From NCBI RefSeq assembly GCF_021018805.1, contig NW_026960607.1, positions 126,501 to 190,500 on the forward strand: a DNA stretch of 64,000 nt, read 5' to 3'. How positions within the stretch are numbered: the stretch's first letter is position 1; the number at the start of each line of letters is the position of its first letter. The position numbers and the translations under genes were made by a program. Origin of the DNA: Prinia subflava. Its lineage: Eukaryota > Chordata > Aves > Passeriformes > Cisticolidae. The notes beneath the pieces were generated by a model. It was given only the letters and a program-made list of their open reading frames with translations, was not told the origin of the DNA and ran no database searches. Of the stretch, positions 38,319-64,000 are shown in pieces.

Positions 38319-39170
38319 TGAAAAGAACAGGGCATATGCCTTTATTAATATTCAGCTCTTTATTGAAGTGATCAGCTCATTATTAAAGTCATCAGCAGGA
38401 TAGCAGAGTCCGATCAGAGTTTTCCACGCTGCTGCAGCCATCTGAAGGAGCAGGTGCTGTCCCAGTGGATGCTGAGTCCTTGTTCCCATAGAAACAGCTA
38501 GCAGCTCCCTCTGGTCAACCCTCAGAAGGCAGAGCAGTGGCAGTCAGCTCTTTGCCTACAGGGAAAAGTTTAAGAGTTTCCCATTCACTGCCTGAGTTGC
38601 TTCAGCTGGCTGGTTCCCATTCCATCCGAACTCCTCATAGGTCATGGTGAATCTTCAAATCAGGTCAGGAGGTGCATCCACTTCGTGCTCGGCCAGGGTG
38701 AATTCTCCTCTGACGCCTCTAGCTTCTTGTTTTGGGGTCAGTTTCCCTAAAAAAACCCTCCCAGGATCCACCAGGGTGGTTTTATTTGCATATACACATG
38801 CATATGCATTTGTCCTGGTCATAGCCGAGGTTACTCCTTCTGAATGAGGTAGTTATAAAGGACAATAGGGCTATCTAGGTGTGGGCAGCTTCTTTTCACA
38901 TTTAAATTAGGTAGGGAAAAGTTGCCAGGCAACTTTCCTTCAGGGCAGCTCTCCCTACTCAGATTGGCTGGGGTGTGGGGGGTTACTCTAGCCAGGAGAG
39001 GGTCAGTTGTGGAGTGGTTTTTTTTTGTTTTGTTTTGTTTTGTTTTGTTTTGTTTTGTTTTGTTTTGTTTTGTTTTGTTTTGTTTTGTTTTGTTTTGTTT
39101 TGTTTTGTTTTGTTTTGTTTTGTTTTGTTTTGTTTTGTTTTGTTTTGTTTTGTTTTTCCCGTTCCTAACA
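38319..39170 (-). mobile_element. Solo LTR of the class I family (same as 51815 and 58157)
   Basis: Clear homologue of the LTRs of the inner provirus: minus-strand TGTTAGGAACGG at 39170 and ...CTGTTCTTTTCA at 38319, with two AATAAA-type signals near the 3' end. CTTTC flanks both sides (38314-38318 and 39171-39175). It is more diverged than the other two copies, keeps the ATGCATATGCAT palindrome (38798-38809), and has a much longer (TTTTG)n tract. Confidence 0.9.
39021..39157 (+). repeat. (TTTTG)n microsatellite inside LTR
   Basis: About 27 near-perfect TTTTG units. The same LTR position holds shorter mixed GTT/GTTTT repeats in the copies at 52530-52580 and 58873-58917, so it expanded within this copy. 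The long Phe/Val/Leu/Cys or Lys/Gln/Asn/Thr ORFs over it are artefacts. Confidence 0.95.
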
Positions 39171-50460: not shown

Positions 50461-51465
50461 TGGGGATTCACAAGGCAGAGAGTCAAACAGACTTGATTAG
50501 CATAGCTAGTTTGATAACCCAGATGCCATGGCAAGAACAAACAGAACTGTAAAAATTACAGGAGATGGGATTACACCTGCTTACGGGAAGAGAGAAGATT
50601 CAATCAACTTCTGCAAGCAAAGAATTGTTGTAAAATGCATGAGTTTTCTGTGTGATGTTTAACCTGATTATTGTAGTAGAAATTATTAACCTGTTTGAAA
50701 TATGTGAAAAATGTAGTATGTTAATTCATGTTCTTATAGTTAATGAGATTTATTGAAAACTATAAAACTGTATAAATGTGTGTGTTGTATGAAAATATAA
50801 GTTTCAGGACACCCTGTAACATTTTGTTAAACCAAATTATGAAAAGGCAGGCACCACCCCAGAAACTCACATTCAGAAATAGACAAAAGGTTTACTGGAA
50901 AACCGGCAGTCTCCTCGAGCACTGGGAGGAGACCCATCAAGATAAGGCGGGCAGGACCATCAACGGCTCCAGACTACACCCTCACCGATCATCAAGCATC
51001 ATCATCCATATCTCGACCATCCATCAGCCATGAAGATCTACAGAAACTGGACATTAACATATGAACTGAGAGAAAGAACTCTTTTCAGCCTAGCCGGAGA
51101 CACCCTTGGATTTGAATAGCTAGCTGGGAAACAAAGGGAAATATTGCCAAGGGCAGAATAAAGTGTATAAAAACTAAGCCCCGAACCGGGCAAATTTGTG
51201 AACCAAAGGGGAGGCAGCAGACGGCCAAGTTCTGTGTCTCACGGTTCACCCTTGGCATTTTCCCGAGTAAAAGACTGTCAAGTATCTCCGCTGTTAGTGA
51301 GTTTACCGAAATTCTGTAATTCGATCTTTTGATTAATAAATCAAAATTATTTAATTGGAATATTGTATTGGCATTTATAAAAAAATAGTATATAAGCTTT
51401 TGGGAAACCCGAGTAAAATCGAATTCTGATCACCGAATCAGTCTTCCCGTCTCTCATCATCGCCA
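50461..51465 (+). mobile_element. 5' LTR of ERVK provirus, carrying an insertion
   Basis: Starts TGGGGATTCACAAGG, matching the 3' LTR start at 63728. After removal of the 680-bp nested LTR and its 5-bp duplication the element is about 320 bp, with TATATAAG at 51389-51396 and a probable end ...CATCGCCA at 51465, five nucleotides before the PBS. Confidence 0.85.
50703..51382 (+). mobile_element. Solo LTR nested inside the ERVK 5' LTR (TSD AAATA)
   Basis: Begins TGTGAAAAATG and ends ATTTATAAAA (terminal CA lost). TATAAAA lies at 51166-51172 and AATAAA at 51335-51340. AAATA flanks it at 50698-50702 and 51383-51387. The provirus 3' LTR has the uninterrupted site (AAATA at 63965-63969 followed by GTATATAAG). 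It is a diverged relative of the LTR at 61212-61896. Confidence 0.9.
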
Positions 51466-51600: not shown

Positions 51601-51814
51601 CCAGGGGAACTCAAGGTATGGGACAGGACGTGTCCGACGAGAGAGACATTAACAAAACCATGCAACGCTTGCTGAGCAAGCATGGATCCCCCATCCTTAA
51701 GCAGGACCTTAAGTCGCTCCTACGATGAGTGTCATGCATGTTCCCCGATACCACCCCTTCCTCTATTTTTACTCTCTGCTACTGGGACAAGGTCAGCTTA
51801 AAGCTCTACGACCT

Positions 51815-52602
51815 TGAAAAGAACAGGGCATATGCCTTTATTAATATTCAGCTCTTTATTAAAGTGATCAGCTCATTATTAAAATCATCAGCAGGATTGC
51901 AAAGTCCGATCGGAGTTTTCCACACTACTGCAGCCATCTGAAGGAGCAGGTGCTGTCCCAGTGGATGCTGAGTCCTTGTTCCCATAGAAACAGCTGGCAG
52001 TTCTCTCTGGTCGACCATCAGAAGGCAGAGCACTGGCAGTCAGCTCTTTGCCCTCAGGGAAAAGTTTCAAGAGTTTCCCATTCTCTGCATCAGTCAGCTC
52101 AGCTGGCCAGTTCCCATTCCATTCAGGCTCCTCACAGGTCATGGCCAATCTTCAAACCAGGCCAGGAGGTGCATCCACTCCCCGCTCAGCCAGGGCACTA
52201 TCCAATTCTCTTCTGACGAATCCAGCTTCCTGTCCTGGGGTGCAGTTTCCCCAAAAAAAACCTCCCAGGATCCACGGGGGCGGCCCTGCCCTATCTGCAT
52301 ATCCAAATGCATATGCATTTGTCCTGGTCATAGCCGAAGTTACTCTTGCTAAATGAGGTAGTTACAAAGGACAATAGGGCTATCTAGGTGTGGGCAGCTT
52401 CTTTTCACATTTCAATTAGGTAGGGAAAAGTTGTCAGGCAACTTTCCTTCAGGGCAGCTCTCCCTACTCAGATTGTCTGGGGTGTGGGGGGGTGTTACTC
52501 TAGCCAGGAGAGGGTCAGTTGTGGGGTGGTTGTTTTGTTGTTTTGTTGTTTTGTTGTTTTGTTGTTGTTTTGTTTTTTTTTTCTTTTCTTTCGTTCCTAA
52601 CA
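51815..52602 (-). mobile_element. 3' LTR of class I provirus
   Basis: Minus-strand TGTTAGGAACG at 52602 to TTCTTTTCA at 51815. Two AATAAA signals lie in the last 60 bp of the sense strand. The POU palindrome is at 52307-52318. A sense ORF of 86 codons lies within it at 52148-51888. Confidence 0.92.
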
Positions 52603-52604
52603 AA

Positions 52605-52614
52605 TCCCTCCTCT
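52605..52614 (-). promoter_or_regulatory. Polypurine tract of class I provirus
   Basis: The minus strand reads AGAGGAGGGA just before the LTR. It is rather short and interrupted for a PPT. Confidence 0.6.
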
Positions 52615-53008
52615 ATTTCTTTGATCGGGCTGTAGCCCGCATCAACTTGCAGCTTCCTACTGTGTATCCTCTCAGTAGACACTGCTCAAAGAAATTTAGG
52701 AGTTCTCTAGGGGAATTGCCCAGCGAGAGACTGAGCAGATGTGGGAGGGGTGCCTTTAAACTTGTTTTTTTTATCAGGAATTAAGACACACTAGATAACA
52801 ATTTAACTAGGGATAGGTCTCTTGGTCTCTCAATTGTTGTCTACGTAGAAGAGGTGGCAGGTGGTCCTGTTGGGTCTGGTTCGGCATCAGGGGCGGTACT
52901 GGTCCTGTGACTCCGGTAACGTGGGTCTGACTTCTCTCTGGAGTTCGCACTGCGGTATGTGTGGTGAGCAGCACCTGGAAGAGACTTTCATAATTTTCCT
53001 CTTCTTAG
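52615..53008 (-). pseudogene. 3' coding remnant of class I provirus (env end?)
   Basis: On the minus strand a segment reading EENYESLFQVLLTTHTAVRT ends at a stop near 52795. A second, reading FFEQCLLRGYTVGSCK, ends at a TAG next to the PPT. The position suits the env C-terminus, but no immunosuppressive domain, CWLC or transmembrane segment is visible, so the identity is inferred from position only. Confidence 0.4.
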
Positions 53009-54640
53009 TTACAGAATTACAGAATCACTAGGCTGGAAGAGACTTCTAGGATTAAGTCTAACTCTAATTACACGATGTCACTAAGTGCTACATCTACTCT
53101 CTTCTTACACACATCTAGGAATGGTGACTTTACTACTTCTCAAGGCAGAATTTTTTTTTTTTTTTTTTGGCACCGCTGAAGACTGTGTCTTCTTGTTCTA
53201 TCAGTTGCTGCTTGAAGAACAAGACTAACTCTCACTTTACTATAACTACCTTTCAGGGAGTTGTAGTGATAATGTTACTTCTGAATCTCTTTTTCTCTAG
53301 GCTAAACAACTTCAGCTCTTCCAGCTAGTATTTATAGGGCTAGTGTTCTAAGCTTCTCACTAGCTTTGTTGCTTTCTTTTGACAGGCTCAAGCATCTTAA
53401 TGTCTTTTTAAACTGAGGGGCTCAGAACTGGGCACAGTACTCAAGGAGTGGCCTCACCAATGCTATGTGTAAGGAAAGGATGACCTTTCTGCTCCTGCTG
53501 GCCACATTATTCTCAATACAGCCTACGATATTGTTAGCTTTGGCCATCAGGGCATACTGCTGGCTCATATTTAGTTGGTTATCAACTAGCACTTTCAGGT
53601 CTTTTTCTGCTTGGGTACTGTCTAGCTACACTACCTTCAACTTGTAAGGTTGCAGGGGGTTATTGTGGCTAAAATGCAACACCTGGGATTTGGACTTATT
53701 AAACGTTATCTTCTTGGATTTTGCTTATCTATCTAATCATTTTAGGTTTCTCTACAGAGTCTTCTTACTCTCTAACAGATGGACACGTGCTCTCAGCTTA
53801 GTGTCATCTGTAAATTTACTAATGAAGGACTCAATACTTTCATCTGTGTTATTAATAAATATAATAAATAGAACTGGCTTCAGCACAGACTTTTGAGGGA
53901 CACCACTGGTGGCTGGTTGCCTGCTGGATGCAGCACTATTCGTTACTACTCTCTGGGCTTGGGTATCTAGCCAGTTCTTAACTTAGCAAAGAGTGTTCTT
54001 GTATAAGCTGTGGGAAACAGTGTCAAAGACTTTGCTGAAGTCTAAATAGACAACATAAACAACTTTTCATGTATCTGCCAGGCGGGTCACCTGGTCAGAG
54101 AAGGAGGCTAGTGGGGTCGAACACTACTTACTTCTCTTAAGCTCATGCTGGCTGGGTCTGATACTCTGTTTATCTCATCAGTGCTGCACAATAGCTCTCA
54201 GTATAAACTGCTTTATCATCTTACTCGGTACTTTGGTCAGGCTAACTGGCATATAATTACTAGGCTCTTCTCTACTCTTTATGAATGGGAATTACATTGG
54301 CTAGCTCTCAGTCATCTAGAACTTCACTAGTGAGTTGAGACTGTTGGTAGATGATAGAGTGGCTTTGCAAACTTAGCTCTCTTATCTCTTTGGGATGGAT
54401 TTCATGTGAGTGGGCATTCAAGCAAATTACTACTTCTCTGACTACTTTGTTTTTGATAACAGGAGGACTATTCTGTTCTTTAAAAATATCTACTGACTCA
54501 GTATGACCACTGTCTTGAAGACAAGCTGTCTTCTCACTAAAGACAGCAGCAAAACAAAGCATAAAGCACTTCTGCTTTCTCTTTGTCTGCAATTACTAAA
54601 TTTCTTCTTACTTTGAATCATGTTCTAGATTGGCTAGGGG
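53009..54640 (-). mobile_element. CR1 LINE segment inside class I provirus, hypermutated
   Basis: Follows antisense CR1 order over 1.6 kb: tail ACAGAATTACAGAATCACTA, then CTGGGCACAGTACTCAAGG, GTGTCATCTGTAAATTTACT, GGGACACCACTGGTGGC, GTGTCAAAGACTTTGCTGAA and TCATGCTGGCTGGGTCTGA. It covers the 3' UTR and the end of ORF2. Nearly every CC expected from CR1 is CT or TT here (for example CTCTGGGCTTGGGTATCTAG). It is in the same sense as the provirus. Confidence 0.9.
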
Positions 54641-54929
54641 TTCTCTAGCGAGAAACTGCATAGGGTGATTAATTCTAAGTCACTTGTGTTCATTATTTTA
54701 GAGTCAGTCAACTAGTGTAAAGTCTTCTGGCTTAGCAATTTTTCTTTTGCAGGATCAACCTTTTAGACTTCTTTTATTAGGGTAGCTGTTACTGCAACTG
54801 TTTGCAGGCAAGTTGGTTATCTCTTAACTACTGGGTCTAGTAGTTTTGAGAGGTAGACCGTAGACTTTGATTCTCACTATCAGGGATCTATAGTCTCTCA
54901 TGCTTTGCTTTTTTTTTTTTTTTTTTCTT

Positions 54930-55400
54930 GGTCTGAATTTTAGCTGGTGTCTATTAAGGGCATCTTATGGTCTCTTGGGTGTCACAGTCTATTTTTTTTA
55001 TTTTTGCTATCTGGACTATCCGGGCTTCTTCTGGAGTGAACAGAACTATTAGAATAGAGTTTAACTCTCTCTAGAAATAACTATTTGGCCTCAGAAGCTG
55101 GTCTAGCTGGTTAGACATTCCAATGGGGTCTTCTACTAAACCCTCTCTCTTTCTTAGAGTCTTGGGCTTCAGGGGCTGTCAAAGGTGCATTTATAAATTT
55201 TAATCTTTTTAATTAATCTATAGGAACTTTTCTAAGGGGAAAGACCTCCTCTGTTCTTGGTGCTTTGGATTGGGTGTTGTAATCTGTCTCTTCCTCTAAA
55301 ACACCAGGTAGAGGGAGCAGTAGTGGAGACAGGCCAAGAGAAACACTGGGCAGGGGTGGTTCCCACTCCCAAGTGGGGAAGTGAGGGTATCACAATTGGT
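54930..55400 (-). pseudogene. gag: Class I provirus gag capsid remnant
   Basis: On the minus strand near 55230-55270 the frame reads EEVFPLRKVP and then, after a stop, FINAPLTAPEAQ. In a shifted frame near 55110 it reads EDPIGMSNQLDQLLRPN. These are the N-terminal capsid blocks of gammaretroviral Gag. Several stops fit TGG-to-TAG/TGA changes caused by GG editing. Upstream (55480-56150) is probably matrix but I cannot recognise it. Confidence 0.7.
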
Positions 55401-56170
55401 GAAGGGGAACTGTTGGAGAGGTTAAGGAAGAGACTGGAGGTACAGCTGGGGTAGGAGGGAGAGTTTGCATATTTTCACATTTTCATTACTTATAGTTTTC
55501 TAGCCAGCAGGCTGCATAAGATAGTGGTTTTACATCAGGGTCTTCTTGGGCTTAGAGATGTTGGTTTAAGTGGTTACACATTTACTGAATTCAGGTCTTA
55601 CACTATGACCACTCTCTTTGTAATTTTAATCTCAGCTATATTCTTTTACTATAATATGTCATCTTAACTTTATCTGGACTCTTTGTGGTCTTTTAAGGAT
55701 ATTATTGGTCTGACAATTGTTCTAGGGGGATGTTAGGGAGAATCTTCTTTACTGTCCTTTTGGAAGGGTCTGCTTGTTTACTATAACATCATCTCAGTTT
55801 TTAGGCCTTAAAATAAAAGGAAAAACGAAGTACTTTAACAGTGCTTCAATCTAAACTGGAATATTCTGATTGGCAATCTAAACTAAGATAACTAAAGGTT
55901 GTCTGATCTCTCACAACTAAACATCCTGAATCTCTTTGCTGAACTTTAAAGGGTCAGAATCTAATTTCTTGGCAACCCACTTTTGACACTTTTTCGCCTG
56001 TCTCTTTTTAAAACTCTCTCTTGGCTATGACACTTACTACTATGAATCACACCCATTGTTTTCTGCTAAGGGTATCTCTCTTAACTTTTTGACTTAAGTC
56101 TGAACTTCTTTCTAGGCTTTCTAGGCTTGGACCCCTGCTGAGTCTTGTTTGAACTCTCTAACTTCACAAG

Positions 56171-56548
56171 GCTTAGGAGGCTTGAACTCCCTGCCAGGCT
56201 GAGGTCGAACGTCCTGCCGAGCCTCACACCTGAACTCCGGCCAAGCCTCCCTTGCCCCCTAGGCTTAGGAGATTCGAACTCCCTGCCGGGGTGAGGTCGA
56301 ACGTCCTGCCGAGCCTCACACCCAAACTCCGGCCGAGTCCCCTTCGCCTCCCTTTCCTACAAGGGTTAGGAGGCTTGAACTCCCTGCCAGGCTGAGGTCG
56401 AACATCCTGCCGAGCCTCACACCTGAACTCCGGCCAAGCCCCCCTTGCCCCCTAGGCTTAGGAGACTCGAACTCCCTGCTGGGGTGAGGTCGAACGTCCT
56501 GCCGAGCCTCACACCCGAACTCTGGCCGAGTCCCCTTCGCCTCCCTTT
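56171..56548. repeat. 193-bp tandem dimer repeat (two copies)
   Basis: Each period has an A half (about 92 bp, GCTTAGGAGGCTTGAACTCC) and a B half (about 100 bp, GCTTAGGAGATTCGAACTCC). Starts are 56171, 56263, 56364 and 56456. A and B share the TGAGGTCGAACGTCCTGCCG core. The array lies in the proviral leader or start of gag and ends at the edge of the hypermutated block. Confidence 0.9.
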
Positions 56549-56744
56549 TTGTTTATCTGGCTGCTCTTTTTGTTTGCCTTTTTTTGCTCATAAATCTTGC
56601 TTGCCTTCTTGCTTGCCTGTCTGCTTTCTTGTCTGTTTCCTCACCTTTATGCCTGCTTTCCTGCTTGCTAATGATATCTTACTTGCTTGCCCGGATATGC
56701 TTAAACTCTCTTGGGGACAGCCCACCTGCCTCCTGGGACATCAT

Positions 56745-57700
56745 GCCCTATCCTGCCAGGGACTTCCCACTTGCCCTATTAGGGATCTTCCTTGCCTGCC
56801 TGTCAGGGCATCCTGCCCTGCCCGAGACTTTCTACCTGCCCTGCCAGGGACTTTTTCTCACCTGCCTACTGGGGCATCTTGTTTTGCCATGCCGGGGACA
56901 TTACCTTGCACCTGCTCTGCCGGGGATCTTTCCTCGTCTGCCTGATGGGGCATCTTGCCGTGCCAGGGATCCTCTTTCAATTCCCTTCTGGAGCAGCCCT
57001 GCCAGGGACCTCTCACCTGCCCTGCTGAGGATCTTCTCTCATCTGCCTTCTGGAGTAACCCTGCCAGGGGCCTCTCACTTGCCCTGCTGGGGATCTTCTC
57101 TTGCCTGCCTACTGGAGCATCTTGTCTTGTTATGCCAGGGACATTACCTTGCACCTGCTCTGCCGGGGATCATCTCTCGCCTGCCTGATGGGGCATCCTG
57201 CTGTGCCAGGGATCTTCTTTCACTTGCTTTCTGGAGCAGCCCTGCCAGAGACCTCTCACCTGCCCTGCTGGGGATCTCCTCTCACCTGCCTTCTGGAGTA
57301 ACCCTGCCAGGGGCCTCTCACTTGCCCTGCTGGGGATCTTCTCTTGCCTGCCTACTGGAGCATCTTGTCTTGTTATGCCAGGGACATTACCTTGCACCTG
57401 CTCTGCCAGGGATCATCCCTCGCCTGCCTGATGGGGCATCCTGCTGTGCCAGGGATCTTCTTTCACTTGCCTTCTGGAGCAGCCCTGCCAGAGACCTCTC
57501 ACCTGCCCTGCTGGGGTCCTCCTCTCACCTGCCTTCTGGGGCAGCCCTGCCAGGGACATTACCTTCCCTGTTGGGGATCTCCTCTCATCTGCCTTCTGGG
57601 GCAGCCCTGCCAGGGACATTACTTTCCCTGTTGGGGATGTCCTCTCATCTGCCTTCTGGGGCAGCCCTGCCAGGGACCTCTCACCTGCCCTGCTGAGGAT
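56745..57700. repeat. 60-bp minisatellite with ~243-bp higher-order period
   Basis: The basic unit is clearest at 57541, 57601 and 57661 (each GCAGCCCTGCCAGGGAC..., exactly 60 bp apart). Four diverged units form a higher-order unit: CTGATGGGGCATC recurs at 56943, 57187 and 57429 (about 243 bp apart). Both periods are multiples of three, so long ORFs exist on both strands (370 codons on +, 68-98 on -). I regard the + ORF as a by-product. It sits between the splice donor and gag in the provirus. Confidence 0.9.
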
Positions 57701-57709
57701 CTTACCTCA
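57699..57709 (-). promoter_or_regulatory. Candidate splice donor of class I provirus
   Basis: The minus strand reads GTGAG/GTAAGA, about 430 nt after the PBS and just before the minisatellite. Confidence 0.45.
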
Positions 57710-58136
57710 CACCTCAAGAGCCTTTGCACGCTCGATGGGGCCCTCCCCCAAGGAGGCACCTCAGTCACTCTTCTATGCCATTCGCTTCCCGCCCGTTCTC
57801 GGCCGGCACCCTCTCGGGAGACCGGAAACGCGATACTAGGGGGTCCACTTTCGCTCTGGGGGTCCGAGCTGCCGGCCCCCATCTCACTCAAGCACTCATT
57901 CACTCGCCTCCCATTTCCACCACGGATTTATCTCACCCATCTGGCGTTCTTCTGCTTTGCTTGGTCTCACGATGATCCCAGGGCCGATCCAGCGCTGATC
58001 CCAGGGCCGATCCTGCATTCTTCTGTGCTGCTTGGTCCCACGCTGATGCCAAGGTCCGGGGGTAGCCAGCGATTCCCAAGGATCCCTCGAAGCAGATGAT
58101 CGTCTTCTTCGGGGGTGGTCCTTTGTGGGCGTGGCT

Positions 58137-58154
58137 ATCCCGGACGAGCCCCCA
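58137..58154 (-). promoter_or_regulatory. Primer binding site, tRNA-Pro
   Basis: The minus strand reads TGGGGGCTCGTCCGGGAT, two nucleotides after the 5' LTR. This is the classic tRNA-Pro PBS of gammaretroviruses, without a mismatch. Confidence 0.95.
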
Positions 58155-58156
58155 AT

Positions 58157-58934
58157 TGAAAAGAACAGGGCATATGCCTTTATTAATATTCAGCTCTTTA
58201 TTAAAGTGATCAGCTCATTATTAAAATCATCAGCAGGATTGCAAAGTCCGATCGGAGTTTTCCACACTACTGCAGCCATCTGAAGGAGCAGGTGCTGTCC
58301 CAGTGGATGCTGAGTCCTTGTTCCCATAGAAACAGCTGGCAGTTCTCTCTGGTCGACCATCAGAAGGCAGAGCACTGGCAGTCAGCTCTTTGCCCTCAGG
58401 GAAAAGTTTCAAGAGTTTCCCATTCTCTGCATCAGTCAGCTCAGCTGGCCAGTTCCCATTCCATTCAGGCTCCTCACAGGTCATGGCCAATCTTCAAACC
58501 AGGCCAGGAGGTGCATCCACTCCCCGCTCAGCCAGGGCACTATCCAATTCTCTTCTGACGAATCCAGCTTCCTGTCCTGGGGTGCAGTTTCCCCAAAAAA
58601 AACCTCCCAGGATCCACGGGGGCGGCCCTGCCCTATCTGCATATCCAAATGCATATGCATTTGTCCTGGTCATAGCCGAAGTTACTCTTGCTAAATGAGG
58701 TAGTTACAGAGGACAATAGGGCTATCTAGGTGTGGGCAGCTTCTTTTCACATTTCAATTAGGTAGGGAAAAGTTGCCAGGCAACTTTCCTTCAGGGCAGC
58801 TCTCCCTACTCAGATTGTCTGGGGTGTGGGGGGGGTGTTACTCTAGCCAGGAGAGGGTCAGTTGTGGGGTGGTTGTTTTGTTGTTTTGTTGTTGTTGTTT
58901 TTTTTTTTTTTTTTCTTTTCTTTCGTTCCTAACA
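58157..58934 (-). mobile_element. 5' LTR of class I provirus
   Basis: 778 bp, near-identical to 51815-52602. Differences seen include a G/A at 58709, CC versus TC near 58777, the length of a G run near 58830, and the GTT/GTTTT tract at 58873-58917. Confidence 0.92.
58649..58660. promoter_or_regulatory. POU-dimer palindrome ATGCATATGCAT in U3
   Basis: An exact 12-bp match to the MORE-type palindromic Oct-factor element, within a longer 16-bp palindrome AAATGCATATGCATTT. The same 12 bp is at 52307-52318 and 38798-38809. Confidence 0.6.
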
Positions 58935-59559
58935 ACCTGGCTACGCTGCCTGGCCACGAGCCAGAGCTACGTCTGCTTCCTGCCTGAAGGACAGTCATGG
59001 ACGCGATTAAAAAAGAGGGGGGGAGCGAGGCAGCCTGCGAGGCTACCACGGAGACAGCCCCGGCGGCCGTGCCAGACCGAAACCTGCCCAGGCCCCGCTC
59101 CCCGCTCCCCGTCCCCCGTCCGCACCCCCTCCCTGACGAACGCCAGGGATAGAGCCCAGCCGCCAGCTGCAGCCCCACCGGGATCCCACCAGCGACCCCA
59201 GAGCCGCCAAACACTAATTGCTTATGGGGACTCTGACTCTAGCAGTGATGGAGAGTCTTTTGACCCCGGCCCCGAAAAAGATCCAGACTTACTCGCTTCA
59301 AATAGGCATAACAACTGGTTACGGATAAAAAAGAAAGCCCTTAAAGACAGAGACTTTGCCTTTATTTCGCTAATCAATGCCTCTTCAAGTTTCACCAAAT
59401 GGCCAGCTTTTACAGCAAATCATCTCACAGCACGGGACAGCAACGAGCGCAGACATAAATCCTACAGCAGACGCAGCAGCTGACACAGCAACCAGAACCA
59501 ACCTTCAGCTTCCAGCCAGCGCAGGCCCTGCCCGCAGGACCATCTCCGACCATCAGTGC

Positions 59560-60603: not shown

Positions 60604-62061
60604 TTGCTTGGGATTTCAAATGCAGATTTAGAGCCATTGTTTGCCCTCCTGGGAAGAGAGCCCAACCTCTTATCACCCAGAGGCTTAAACAGAGAAGCAC
60701 AAATTGCGCTTCAAAAGGTAGCTGATGCTATCTCTCAGAGGCAATCAGCTAGGTGGGCTCCAGAACTGCCAGTGTGGCTAATCATTCTGAATCCTAACAA
60801 ACAGCCTTATGCCTTAATATTTCAGTGGGACTCAGAAAAAACAGACCCTCTGCTAATTATCGAATGGGTCTTTTTGCCTAACAATATGCCCAAGACTATT
60901 TCCATGCAAGATGAACTTATGGCCATGTTGATTGTCAAGGCTCGTCAAAGACTGACCTCTTTGGCTGGGAAAGATTTTGATCGTATCTATCTACTTCTCA
61001 CACTGTTTTATTTGAATTGGTTGCTACAGATATCTGAAAAATTGCAAATTGCTTTAACAGATTTCCCAGGGCAGATATCTATCCATCCACCTAAACACAA
61101 ATTATTGAGTTCGTCTTTTAATTTAATCCCCAAGCCAAAGAGAAGTGAGACTCCTTTGCAAGCTATGACAATATTCACAGATGGGTCTGGGAAAACCCAT
61201 AAATCAGTGATTGTTATAAACGCCAGGACAAATTTATTGCCAAATTCAATAGTTTGGTTTATTAACATCCAAATCACAAAATTTAGAATCAAATTATAAC
61301 AATTTCAAACAATAAAAACAAAACAATACGAACCCCACGAACAGCAAACTTACTTGACCGAAGTTCTCCCGGGAAAAGTAGAGCCAAGGGTGACCCCAGA
61401 GACACAGGACCTGGCAGCCGGTGTCTCTAGCTGGGTTCACAAATTTGCCCACCTAAAGGCCCAACTTAAATACCCTTAGTTTCCCCCTCGGCAACTTTCC
61501 TCCCATTGTTTCTCTAATCATCGGCCATTAACTTTATTTACATTAAATCCCGAAAGGGTCCCCGGGCACATTCAAATGCTAATGTCCAGAGTTAGTCCTT
61601 GCTTTGAGTAACTGTCGTAGAGGTGTGTGATGACCGATGTAAGTCCTCGCTGGCACGTCTTTGCTGGCACGTAGCGTTTGACCGTTGCGAGTCCCGATGA
61701 GTTTAGCTGCACATAGGCAGGGGCAAGTCATTCTCACCTTCTATTTTTGGAACCCGGGAGATCAGGGAGGTGCTTTCCAGAAGTTCGTGAAACGTGCGGG
61801 TTGAGCAGACACACACATACCTTTATACAATATATATCACAGTTCCCAATCTATAATTATTTATAGAACATGAATTAAATAACCATATTTCCCACAGTGA
61901 TTGTATGGAGGGACCCTGAAGATGGAACTTGGCAATCTGATATTGCTGTTGTTGAAGGGTCTCCACAAACGGTGGAGTTAGGTGCTCTGGTCAGAGTGTT
62001 TCAGAAATTCAGCACACCTTTTAATCTGATTACTGACTCCGCATATGTTTCAGTTGAAATC
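60604..62061 (+). pseudogene. pol: ERVK connection and RNase H, interrupted by an LTR
   Basis: 60604-61206 runs through the connection domain to IFTDGSGKTHKS (first RNase H Asp). The LTR 61212-61896 interrupts it. From 61902 it continues VIVWRDPEDGTWQ and PFNLITDSAYVS (second TDS) and stops at 62061, where another LTR begins. Part of RNase H between this point and 62550 appears lost. Confidence 0.85.
61212..61896 (-). mobile_element. ERVK-like solo LTR in RNase H (TSD GTGAT)
   Basis: 685 bp with ends TGTTATAAACG...TTTCCCACA and GTGAT on both sides (61207-61211 and 61897-61901). On the minus strand it starts TGTGGGAAATATGG, has TATTTAAG, then AATAAATTTG near the end. It shares GGCAAATTTGTGAACC and GGCATTTATAA-type blocks with 50703-51382. 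Confidence 0.92.
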
Positions 62062-63509: not shown

Positions 63510-63787
63510 AGTGTGTTTAAAGGTAGAATCTGGATCTTGGATAGATAACCTGTTTAGTAGCTAGGGTTTCACACCTTGGCTAAAAGATTATCTTGGGATA
63601 GGAATGCATGTAATGATTTTAATAATAATTGTATTAGTTATGATACCTTGCTTGCTTCAGTGTGTGCAGAGATTAATTAATAAAGCCATCAAGGGGGTGT
63701 TCTTGGTTGATACAGAAGGGGGAGATCTGGGAATACACAAGGCAGAGAGTCAAACAGACTTGATTAGCATAGCTAGTTTGATAACCT
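63510..63787 (+). pseudogene. env: ERVK env transmembrane-subunit C-terminus
   Basis: After SGSWIDNLFSS and a stop, the frame reads FTPWLKDYLGIGM and then a membrane segment MILIIIVLVMIPCLLQCV and a basic tail (QRLINKAIKG). This is the layout of a betaretroviral TM tail. The frame continues about 60 bp into the 3' LTR before a stop at 63787. The surface subunit, fusion peptide and ectodomain are absent. Confidence 0.75.
63714..63725 (+). promoter_or_regulatory. Polypurine tract of ERVK provirus
   Basis: AGAAGGGGGAGA, two bases before the 3' LTR start. Confidence 0.85.
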
Positions 63788-64000
63788 AGATGCCATGGCA
63801 GGAACAAACAGAACTGTGAAAATTACAGGAGATGGGATTACACCTGCTTACGGGAAGAGAGAAGATTCAATCAACTTCTGCAAGCAAAGAATTGTTGTAA
63901 AATGCATGAGTTTTCTGTGTGATGTTTAACCTGATTATTGTAGTAGAAATTATTAACCTGTTTGAAATAGTATATAAGCTTTTGGGAAACTTGAGTAAAA
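63728..64000 (+). mobile_element. 3' LTR of ERVK provirus (truncated by window)
   Basis: Matches 50461-50702 and then 51388-51419 with the nested LTR absent (empty site at 63965-63969). The end of the LTR and the target duplication (expected to match the bases before 50461, GCAGTA) lie beyond the window. Confidence 0.9.

Follow-up and report, generated by a model that had tools for sequence, protein, structure and literature searches.

An APOBEC-like, one-strand CC footprint shared by a family of LTR elements in Prinia subflava

In the 64,000-nucleotide stretch of Prinia subflava DNA analysed here (the window), some 3 kb of an LTR element have lost nearly all CC dinucleotides from the + strand while GG remains common. 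What removed CC from one strand, and did it act on this copy or on an ancestor? An earlier note on this DNA had proposed an APOBEC-like hypermutation frozen in one young provirus. Our analysis indicates that the tract is most likely the result of APOBEC-type hypermutation, and that its target was most likely minus-strand cDNA. We consider it highly probable that a cytidine deaminase left this CC footprint on the first-strand cDNA of a single ancestral provirus, which is now present in about 100 copies. The corrected reading is that of an edited ancestor whose descendants spread, and not of a frozen victim.

The depletion is confined to one segment. Positions 54061-54600 contain 3 CC and 29 GG, in line with an earlier hand count of 3 and about 28, and positions 53009-56150 contain 47 CC and 201 GG. 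Calculated per kb, the observed/expected ratio of CC is 0.35, 0.14 and 0.72 in the three intervals covering the tract (53001-56000), and 0.89-1.43 in the other 61. A change-point fit across the element finds a single low segment at 52754-56187, in which CC/(CC+CT) is 52/453 (0.11), between flanks of 60/134 and 308/634 (0.45 and 0.49); GG/(GG+AG) is 0.45-0.60 in the counted pieces of this segment. These measures confirm that CC is nearly absent and GG common over about 3.1 kb, and they shift the limits first given as 53009-56150 by about 250 bases on the left and about 40 on the right. CC/(CC+CT) was also calculated for 504 one-kb stretches taken from both strands. Each of the 12 smallest values, down to 0.04, comes from a stretch overlapping the tract, and elsewhere the ratio does not fall below 0.236.

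The element carrying the tract lies on the minus strand between two copies of a target-site duplication, ACCT (51811-51814 and 58935-58938). In its own sense it consists of a 5' LTR, a leader, two GC-rich repeat blocks, a decayed gag, a CR1 LINE, a short 3' part and a 3' LTR. The 5' LTR (778 bp, 58157-58934) and the 3' LTR (788 bp, 51815-52602) have TG...CA ends, and in comparison with a solo LTR neither carries the editing. Next to the 5' LTR is the primer-binding site TGGGGGCTCGTCCGGGAT (58137-58154), probably of the tRNA-Pro type, followed by an untranslated leader (57715-58136), a repeat block with a 243-bp period (56725-57714) and a 193-bp tandem repeat present as two units in the window copy (56166-56548); leader and repeats are not CC-poor. 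The purine-rich stretch adjoining the 3' LTR on the minus strand (52603-52615) is the polypurine tract. A TG...CA LTR pair with a 4-bp duplication fits a class I (gammaretroviral) element, and duplications of this length are stated for ERV1 (PMC6523648).

The body of the element is a fusion of two unrelated parts. A 5'-truncated CR1 LINE in proviral sense occupies 53010-54602, as aligned to eight CR1 copies from the same genome, and the homology, which covers 53011-54602, ends at 54602 in all eight. Beyond this point lies a CC-poor gammaretroviral gag (54603-56165), decayed by stops and frameshifts and recognised by tblastn with an open gag frame from the same genome (locus L068). In this two-sequence comparison the best match is 46.7% identity over 60 amino acids (E 7e-15, 55154-54975), and a second, weaker match falls at 55683-55306. 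The L068 frame matches Pfam Gag_p30. Searched by themselves against Pfam, pieces of 38 and 26 amino acids from the tract matched no Gag model. Of the gag labels, that of p30 (54975-55154) is firm and those of matrix and p12 are weaker. The duplication and LTR ends, the gag match and the CR1 alignment together bear out the earlier description of a class I element in minus orientation with a CR1 inside. The longest stop-free sense stretch in the element is 103 amino acids, and scans of the window against Rfam (gathering threshold) and for tRNAs returned nothing. The two LTRs differ by 2 substitutions in 713 sites and the window insertion is therefore recent, as had been claimed. In 7 of 15 other copies the retrieved sequence contained two LTR matches, in some cases partial, and these pairs are also only 0-0.57% apart. 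With no coding frame and with recent multiplication, the element qualifies as non-autonomous.

Other features of the window touch on this element. The solo LTR at 38319-39170 belongs to the same LTR group, is 88% identical to the LTRs of the element and contains a long TTTTG run. A direct repeat (50461-50702 and 63728-63969, 98% identical) brackets the element; its two copies may be the LTRs of an older element that surrounds the present one and received its insertion. A frame at 60604-61299 resembles the reverse transcriptase thumb domain, below the cut-off.

Depletion is uneven along the element. CC/(CC+CT) is 15/56 (0.27) at 52604-53008, 18/217 (0.08) in the CR1 part, 4/60, 12/44 and 13/99 (0.07, 0.27 and 0.13) across 54603-56165, and 0.47 in the repeats. 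The value of 12/44 comes from a proline-rich gag stretch (55101-55450), which together with the part nearest the polypurine tract is less depleted than CR1. About 140 bases separate the low segment from the polypurine tract, and about 250 bases of the segment lie beyond the 3' end of CR1; at the other edge, 56187, the depletion stops abruptly where the tandem repeat begins, with no smooth gradient. Mutation gradients 5' of polypurine tracts have been described for HIV (PMC7760323). Here, template switching with an unedited genome, or later growth of unedited repeats, would explain both the unevenness and the abrupt edge.

The direction of the changes can be read in the CR1 part by comparison with CR1 copies from the same genome. 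We used eight CR1 copies of two subfamilies, taken from 39 listed hits at 68-73% identity, and accepted as the starting state the 1282 sites at which both near copies agree and at least 5 of the 6 far copies match. At these sites C>T changes (152/400) far exceed G>A changes (30/249; Fisher p 1.5e-13). They depend on the 5' neighbour, with 97/135 changed at CC, 31/111 at TC, 11/64 at GC and 13/90 at AC, and CC differs strongly from all other C (55/265; p 2.5e-23). The sharing of edits and the diverged members, treated below, were scored on another alignment containing more rows, in which the CC count is 98/136 instead of 97/135. The mirror change on the same strand, GG>AG, affects 7/72 sites. 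Control CR1 copies show little or no excess at CC over other C (17/168 against 26/320 in L056, 21/168 against 30/324 in L057 and 3/144 against 6/284 in L063). With the edits counted, the overall difference between the tract and its closest CR1 reference is 25%. Compared with the solo LTR (38319-39016), the LTRs show C>T at only 6/162 (3' LTR, first 700 or so bases) and 5/162 (5' LTR) sites; in the 3' LTR, 3/42 CC are changed by C>T and T>C occurs 22 times. A C-to-T-collapsed comparison within the window gave only about 60% matches everywhere.

Counted by dinucleotide context against the CR1 sources, the changes are thus asymmetric and biased to CC, which supports the one-strand, APOBEC-like CC-to-CT change of the earlier note. 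Read in proviral sense, CC to CT becomes GG to AG, as minus-strand cDNA deaminated at CC would be expected to yield. C-to-U editing of the sense RNA was rejected as a source, as it would leave C-to-T in proviral sense and not the G-to-A observed. We regard editing of the CR1 part as confirmed. In gag it is very likely, and rests there on composition and one distant gag relative because no close unedited relative was found. The low segment passes both ends of the CR1, and it was therefore the gag-CR1 composite that was edited, not the CR1 alone.

The same edits recur throughout the genome. Two pieces of the tract match at 98-99% in at least 39 other places each, and 15 of the best 40 places were fetched as 9-kb stretches, together with two more diverged members (L066 and L067). 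All 15 copies hold the gag-CR1 body and the repeats, with differing repeat numbers, and about 180 bases at 53130-53309 are absent from five of them. Wherever these copies have the base, 94 of the 98 CC edits scored within CR1 read T without exception (1387 of 1391 cells overall); three of the four exceptional cells are in L023 and one is in L022. A degenerate probe in gag found 109 sites, and among the 100 listed, 96 have T at all five variable places, one has a single C and three have a single A. A probe on the gag-CR1 junction found 99 sites, with T at every variable place in all 94 that were readable. Neither genome-wide probe (up to 3 mismatches, so that more distant copies would escape) found an unedited gag-CR1 composite. 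The members L066 and L067, about 7% distant from the main group and from each other, share 81/89 and 88/98 scorable CC edits.

Since the edits are common to other copies and to members that have diverged by about 7%, the editing is ancestral and older than the window insertion. The claim that it was frozen in one young provirus does not stand, and editing specific to the window copy is not supported. Singletons among the 16 copies are balanced (9 C>T, 8 G>A and 15 T>C) and thus give no sign of new editing in them. One private feature of the window copy is a 2-base deletion; a probe placed on it found the window only.

Some differences within the family may record later events. L023 lacks a block of changes present in the other copies at 53044-53507, has a diverged 3' LTR region and lies at a mean distance of 2.4%, against 0.6-1.1% for the others, a pattern that would fit recombination with an unedited genome. 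At seven CC edits of the main group (53095-54374) the diverged members show C, both of them or, where only one has the base, that one. Between main group and diverged members, 7/39 CC differ in this way against 6/200 other C (p 0.0015, on small counts). A second, milder round of editing in the main group is possible; the same pattern would arise if the two diverged members had recombined or reverted. The 193-bp unit, present twice in the window element, occurs at least 12 times in L019 (13 overlapping matches) and more than twice in many other copies; its number varies, and the family therefore shows fast length polymorphism. Contig C26 carries at least 8 members with identical probe letters over 3.4 Mb, among them a run of similar copies from which L067 was taken, and besides these at least 39 similar endonuclease-domain (PF14529) matches. 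This looks like segmental or satellite-like amplification.

On what DNA did the deaminase act? The founder could have been edited after integration, by the same kind of enzyme acting on chromosomal single-stranded DNA exposed by break resection or in an R-loop, and could then have served as master copy. Such germline kataegis would leave the same clustered one-strand CC>CT signature, and the sharp edges of the tract are in its favour. We nevertheless think it unlikely, as the tract lies wholly within the element, ends just before the polypurine tract, leaves both LTRs untouched and carries changes in the retroviral G-to-A sense. We give little credence to the idea that the CR1 cDNA was edited during CR1 insertion by target-primed reverse transcription, and not the retrovirus. 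The CR1 has the same orientation as the element, so that its first strand would be the edited strand, and it is among the most depleted parts (18/217). However, depletion goes on through 54603-56165 and, on the other side, past the 3' end of CR1 to 52754, and part of this flank is gag by tblastn, which a CR1 insertion would not copy.

The nature of the enzyme can be approached from the context of the edits. At 75 CC dinucleotides the outcome was CT in 51, TT in 9, TC in 5 and no change in 10. The 17 scored CCC runs became CTT (8), CTC (4), TTC (3), TTT (1) and TCT (1), and never CCT; all five scored CCCC runs became CTTC and one CCCCC run became CTCTC. This scoring covers ungapped runs that both near CR1 copies share and that consist in the window of C and T alone. 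The final C of a run is often spared. The enzyme is therefore CC-directed but reads C-runs unlike A3G, whose motif is CCC to CCT (PMC5391955, Table 1). AID prefers WRC and avoids SYC (PMC5391955). In summed context counts, 12/69 WRC and 53/124 SYC sites are changed, the contrary of the AID signature, and AID is thus a very improbable editor, even though the genome has a candidate gene for it. A genome search for APOBEC_N gave one match on contig C23, presumably APOBEC2-like, a three-piece match on contig C3 (20.4296-20.4307 Mb) that we take to fit AICDA, and two single exons on C3 at 20.407 and 20.419 Mb, 10-23 kb from the three-piece match. These exons span 20407399-20407731 and 20418926-20419252.

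These two exons (L064 and L065) both encode a complete zinc motif (HAE...SPCxxC) and both have APOBEC-1 as their best solved relative. The Pfam APOBEC1 model scores 95.6 and 144.2 bits on them, respectively; many models of the AID/APOBEC clade match, and those scoring above APOBEC1 are SNAD4, APOBEC4_like and NAD1 on L064 and APOBEC4_like on L065. By elimination, we guess that the editor is probably one of the two putative APOBEC1-like genes on C3. In L064 (G000:C3:20407360-20407800), the more divergent exon, an acidic yADDGKN aligns with Y-DDKGR/Y-DDQGR of A3G chains, a stretch that we take to be the loop setting the CC preference of A3G. APOBEC1 has been described in zebra finch and lizard, with mutator activity for the lizard enzyme (PMC3880073).

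That composition or CpG decay produced the tract with no enzyme at all has almost no credit with us: low CC is indeed common to the related copies, but on the same strand CC/(CC+CT) is 0.49-0.51 in eight other CR1 copies and 0.46 in the gag relative, against 0.08 in the CR1 part of the tract, the mirror change stays at background and the context is CC, not CG. The earlier note had held that low CC in related unedited copies, or symmetric substitutions, would mark the pattern as compositional. Low CC in related copies was found and symmetry was not; the former misleads as a test because the unedited comparison is the CR1 source, against which the changes are asymmetric. Low CC in every copy does not refute editing.

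We propose the following origin. A CR1 would have inserted into a defective gammaretroviral provirus that had lost pol and env. In a reverse transcription with a deaminase present, probably the product of one of the two APOBEC1-like genes on C3, the minus-strand DNA between leader and polypurine tract would have been deaminated, mostly in one heavy episode that changed about 72% of the CC of the body exposed to it. Editing would have bypassed the LTRs, the primer site, the leader and the polypurine tract, and perhaps only such survivors can move. The edited copy, with no protein to lose, may have stayed mobile because these signals escaped and because it needed no protein of its own, and would have been amplified by proteins supplied in trans. 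The genome contains many reverse transcriptase frames of more than 900 amino acids as possible helpers, none of them linked to the element, and neither blastn nor tblastx matched the tract to any of the 30 loci from the reverse transcriptase family search. More broadly, and only tentatively, birds may have evolved, out of the APOBEC1 branch, an antiretroviral deaminase of their own that is directed at CC. It would be convergent with primate A3G and differ from it in the order in which C-runs are attacked; one of its victims, unable to code but with its cis-signals spared, would have founded a fast-spreading lineage whose edited members have diverged by up to 7%.

A provirus is usually regarded as finished once it has been hypermutated, and here the edited sequence is the family. 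Our findings suggest that an element can survive an antiviral attack and transmit its marks as a new family. Because the edits are inherited, about 100 copies preserve a readable record of the event, its strand, its context and its dose, which in the CR1 part is 97/135 CC. They provide an in vivo motif for a likely bird deaminase, together with a run-position rule separating it from A3G and AID. Which bird enzyme does the job of A3G becomes directly testable with the two exons located here.

Editing signals in LTR elements are reported to be strongest in birds, above all in songbirds (Knisbacher and Levanon, 2016, as cited in PMC6497032 and PMC6523648), and the G-to-A clusters reported there resemble those described here. 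The quoted cases are individual edited elements, whereas the edits of this work are common to a family in which two probes found no unedited composite. For ultra-edited elements, PMC12548423 gives densities of 71.5 and 57.2 G>A per kb (zebra finch) and 120.8 (mouse Mtv21); ours, 152 per 1282 polarised sites including ordinary divergence, 97 of them at CC, is within this range. In PMC6523648, the addition of LTR subfamilies by editing is raised only as speculation. The likeness to A3G hypermutation of retroviruses lies in the one-strand change at CC, GG to AG in sense, and the difference in the C-runs, where A3G turns CCC into CCT (PMC5391955) and we found CCT in 0/17 CCC runs and CTTC in 5/5 CCCC runs. 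Lizards offer a non-mammalian APOBEC1 mutator alongside G-to-A edited retroelements (PMC3880073). The edited element reported there is L1, and not CR1 or LTR elements; in our case the target is an LTR element and the enzyme is a putative one. Editing of bird LTR elements is thus already known, whereas a search of the open-access literature at title and abstract level found no report of a family founded in this way by an edited element. Non-autonomous LTR elements mobilised in trans are likewise familiar. The present element resembles them in keeping its LTRs, primer site, leader and polypurine tract with no long frames, and differs in that its body is a hypermutated fusion of gag and CR1.
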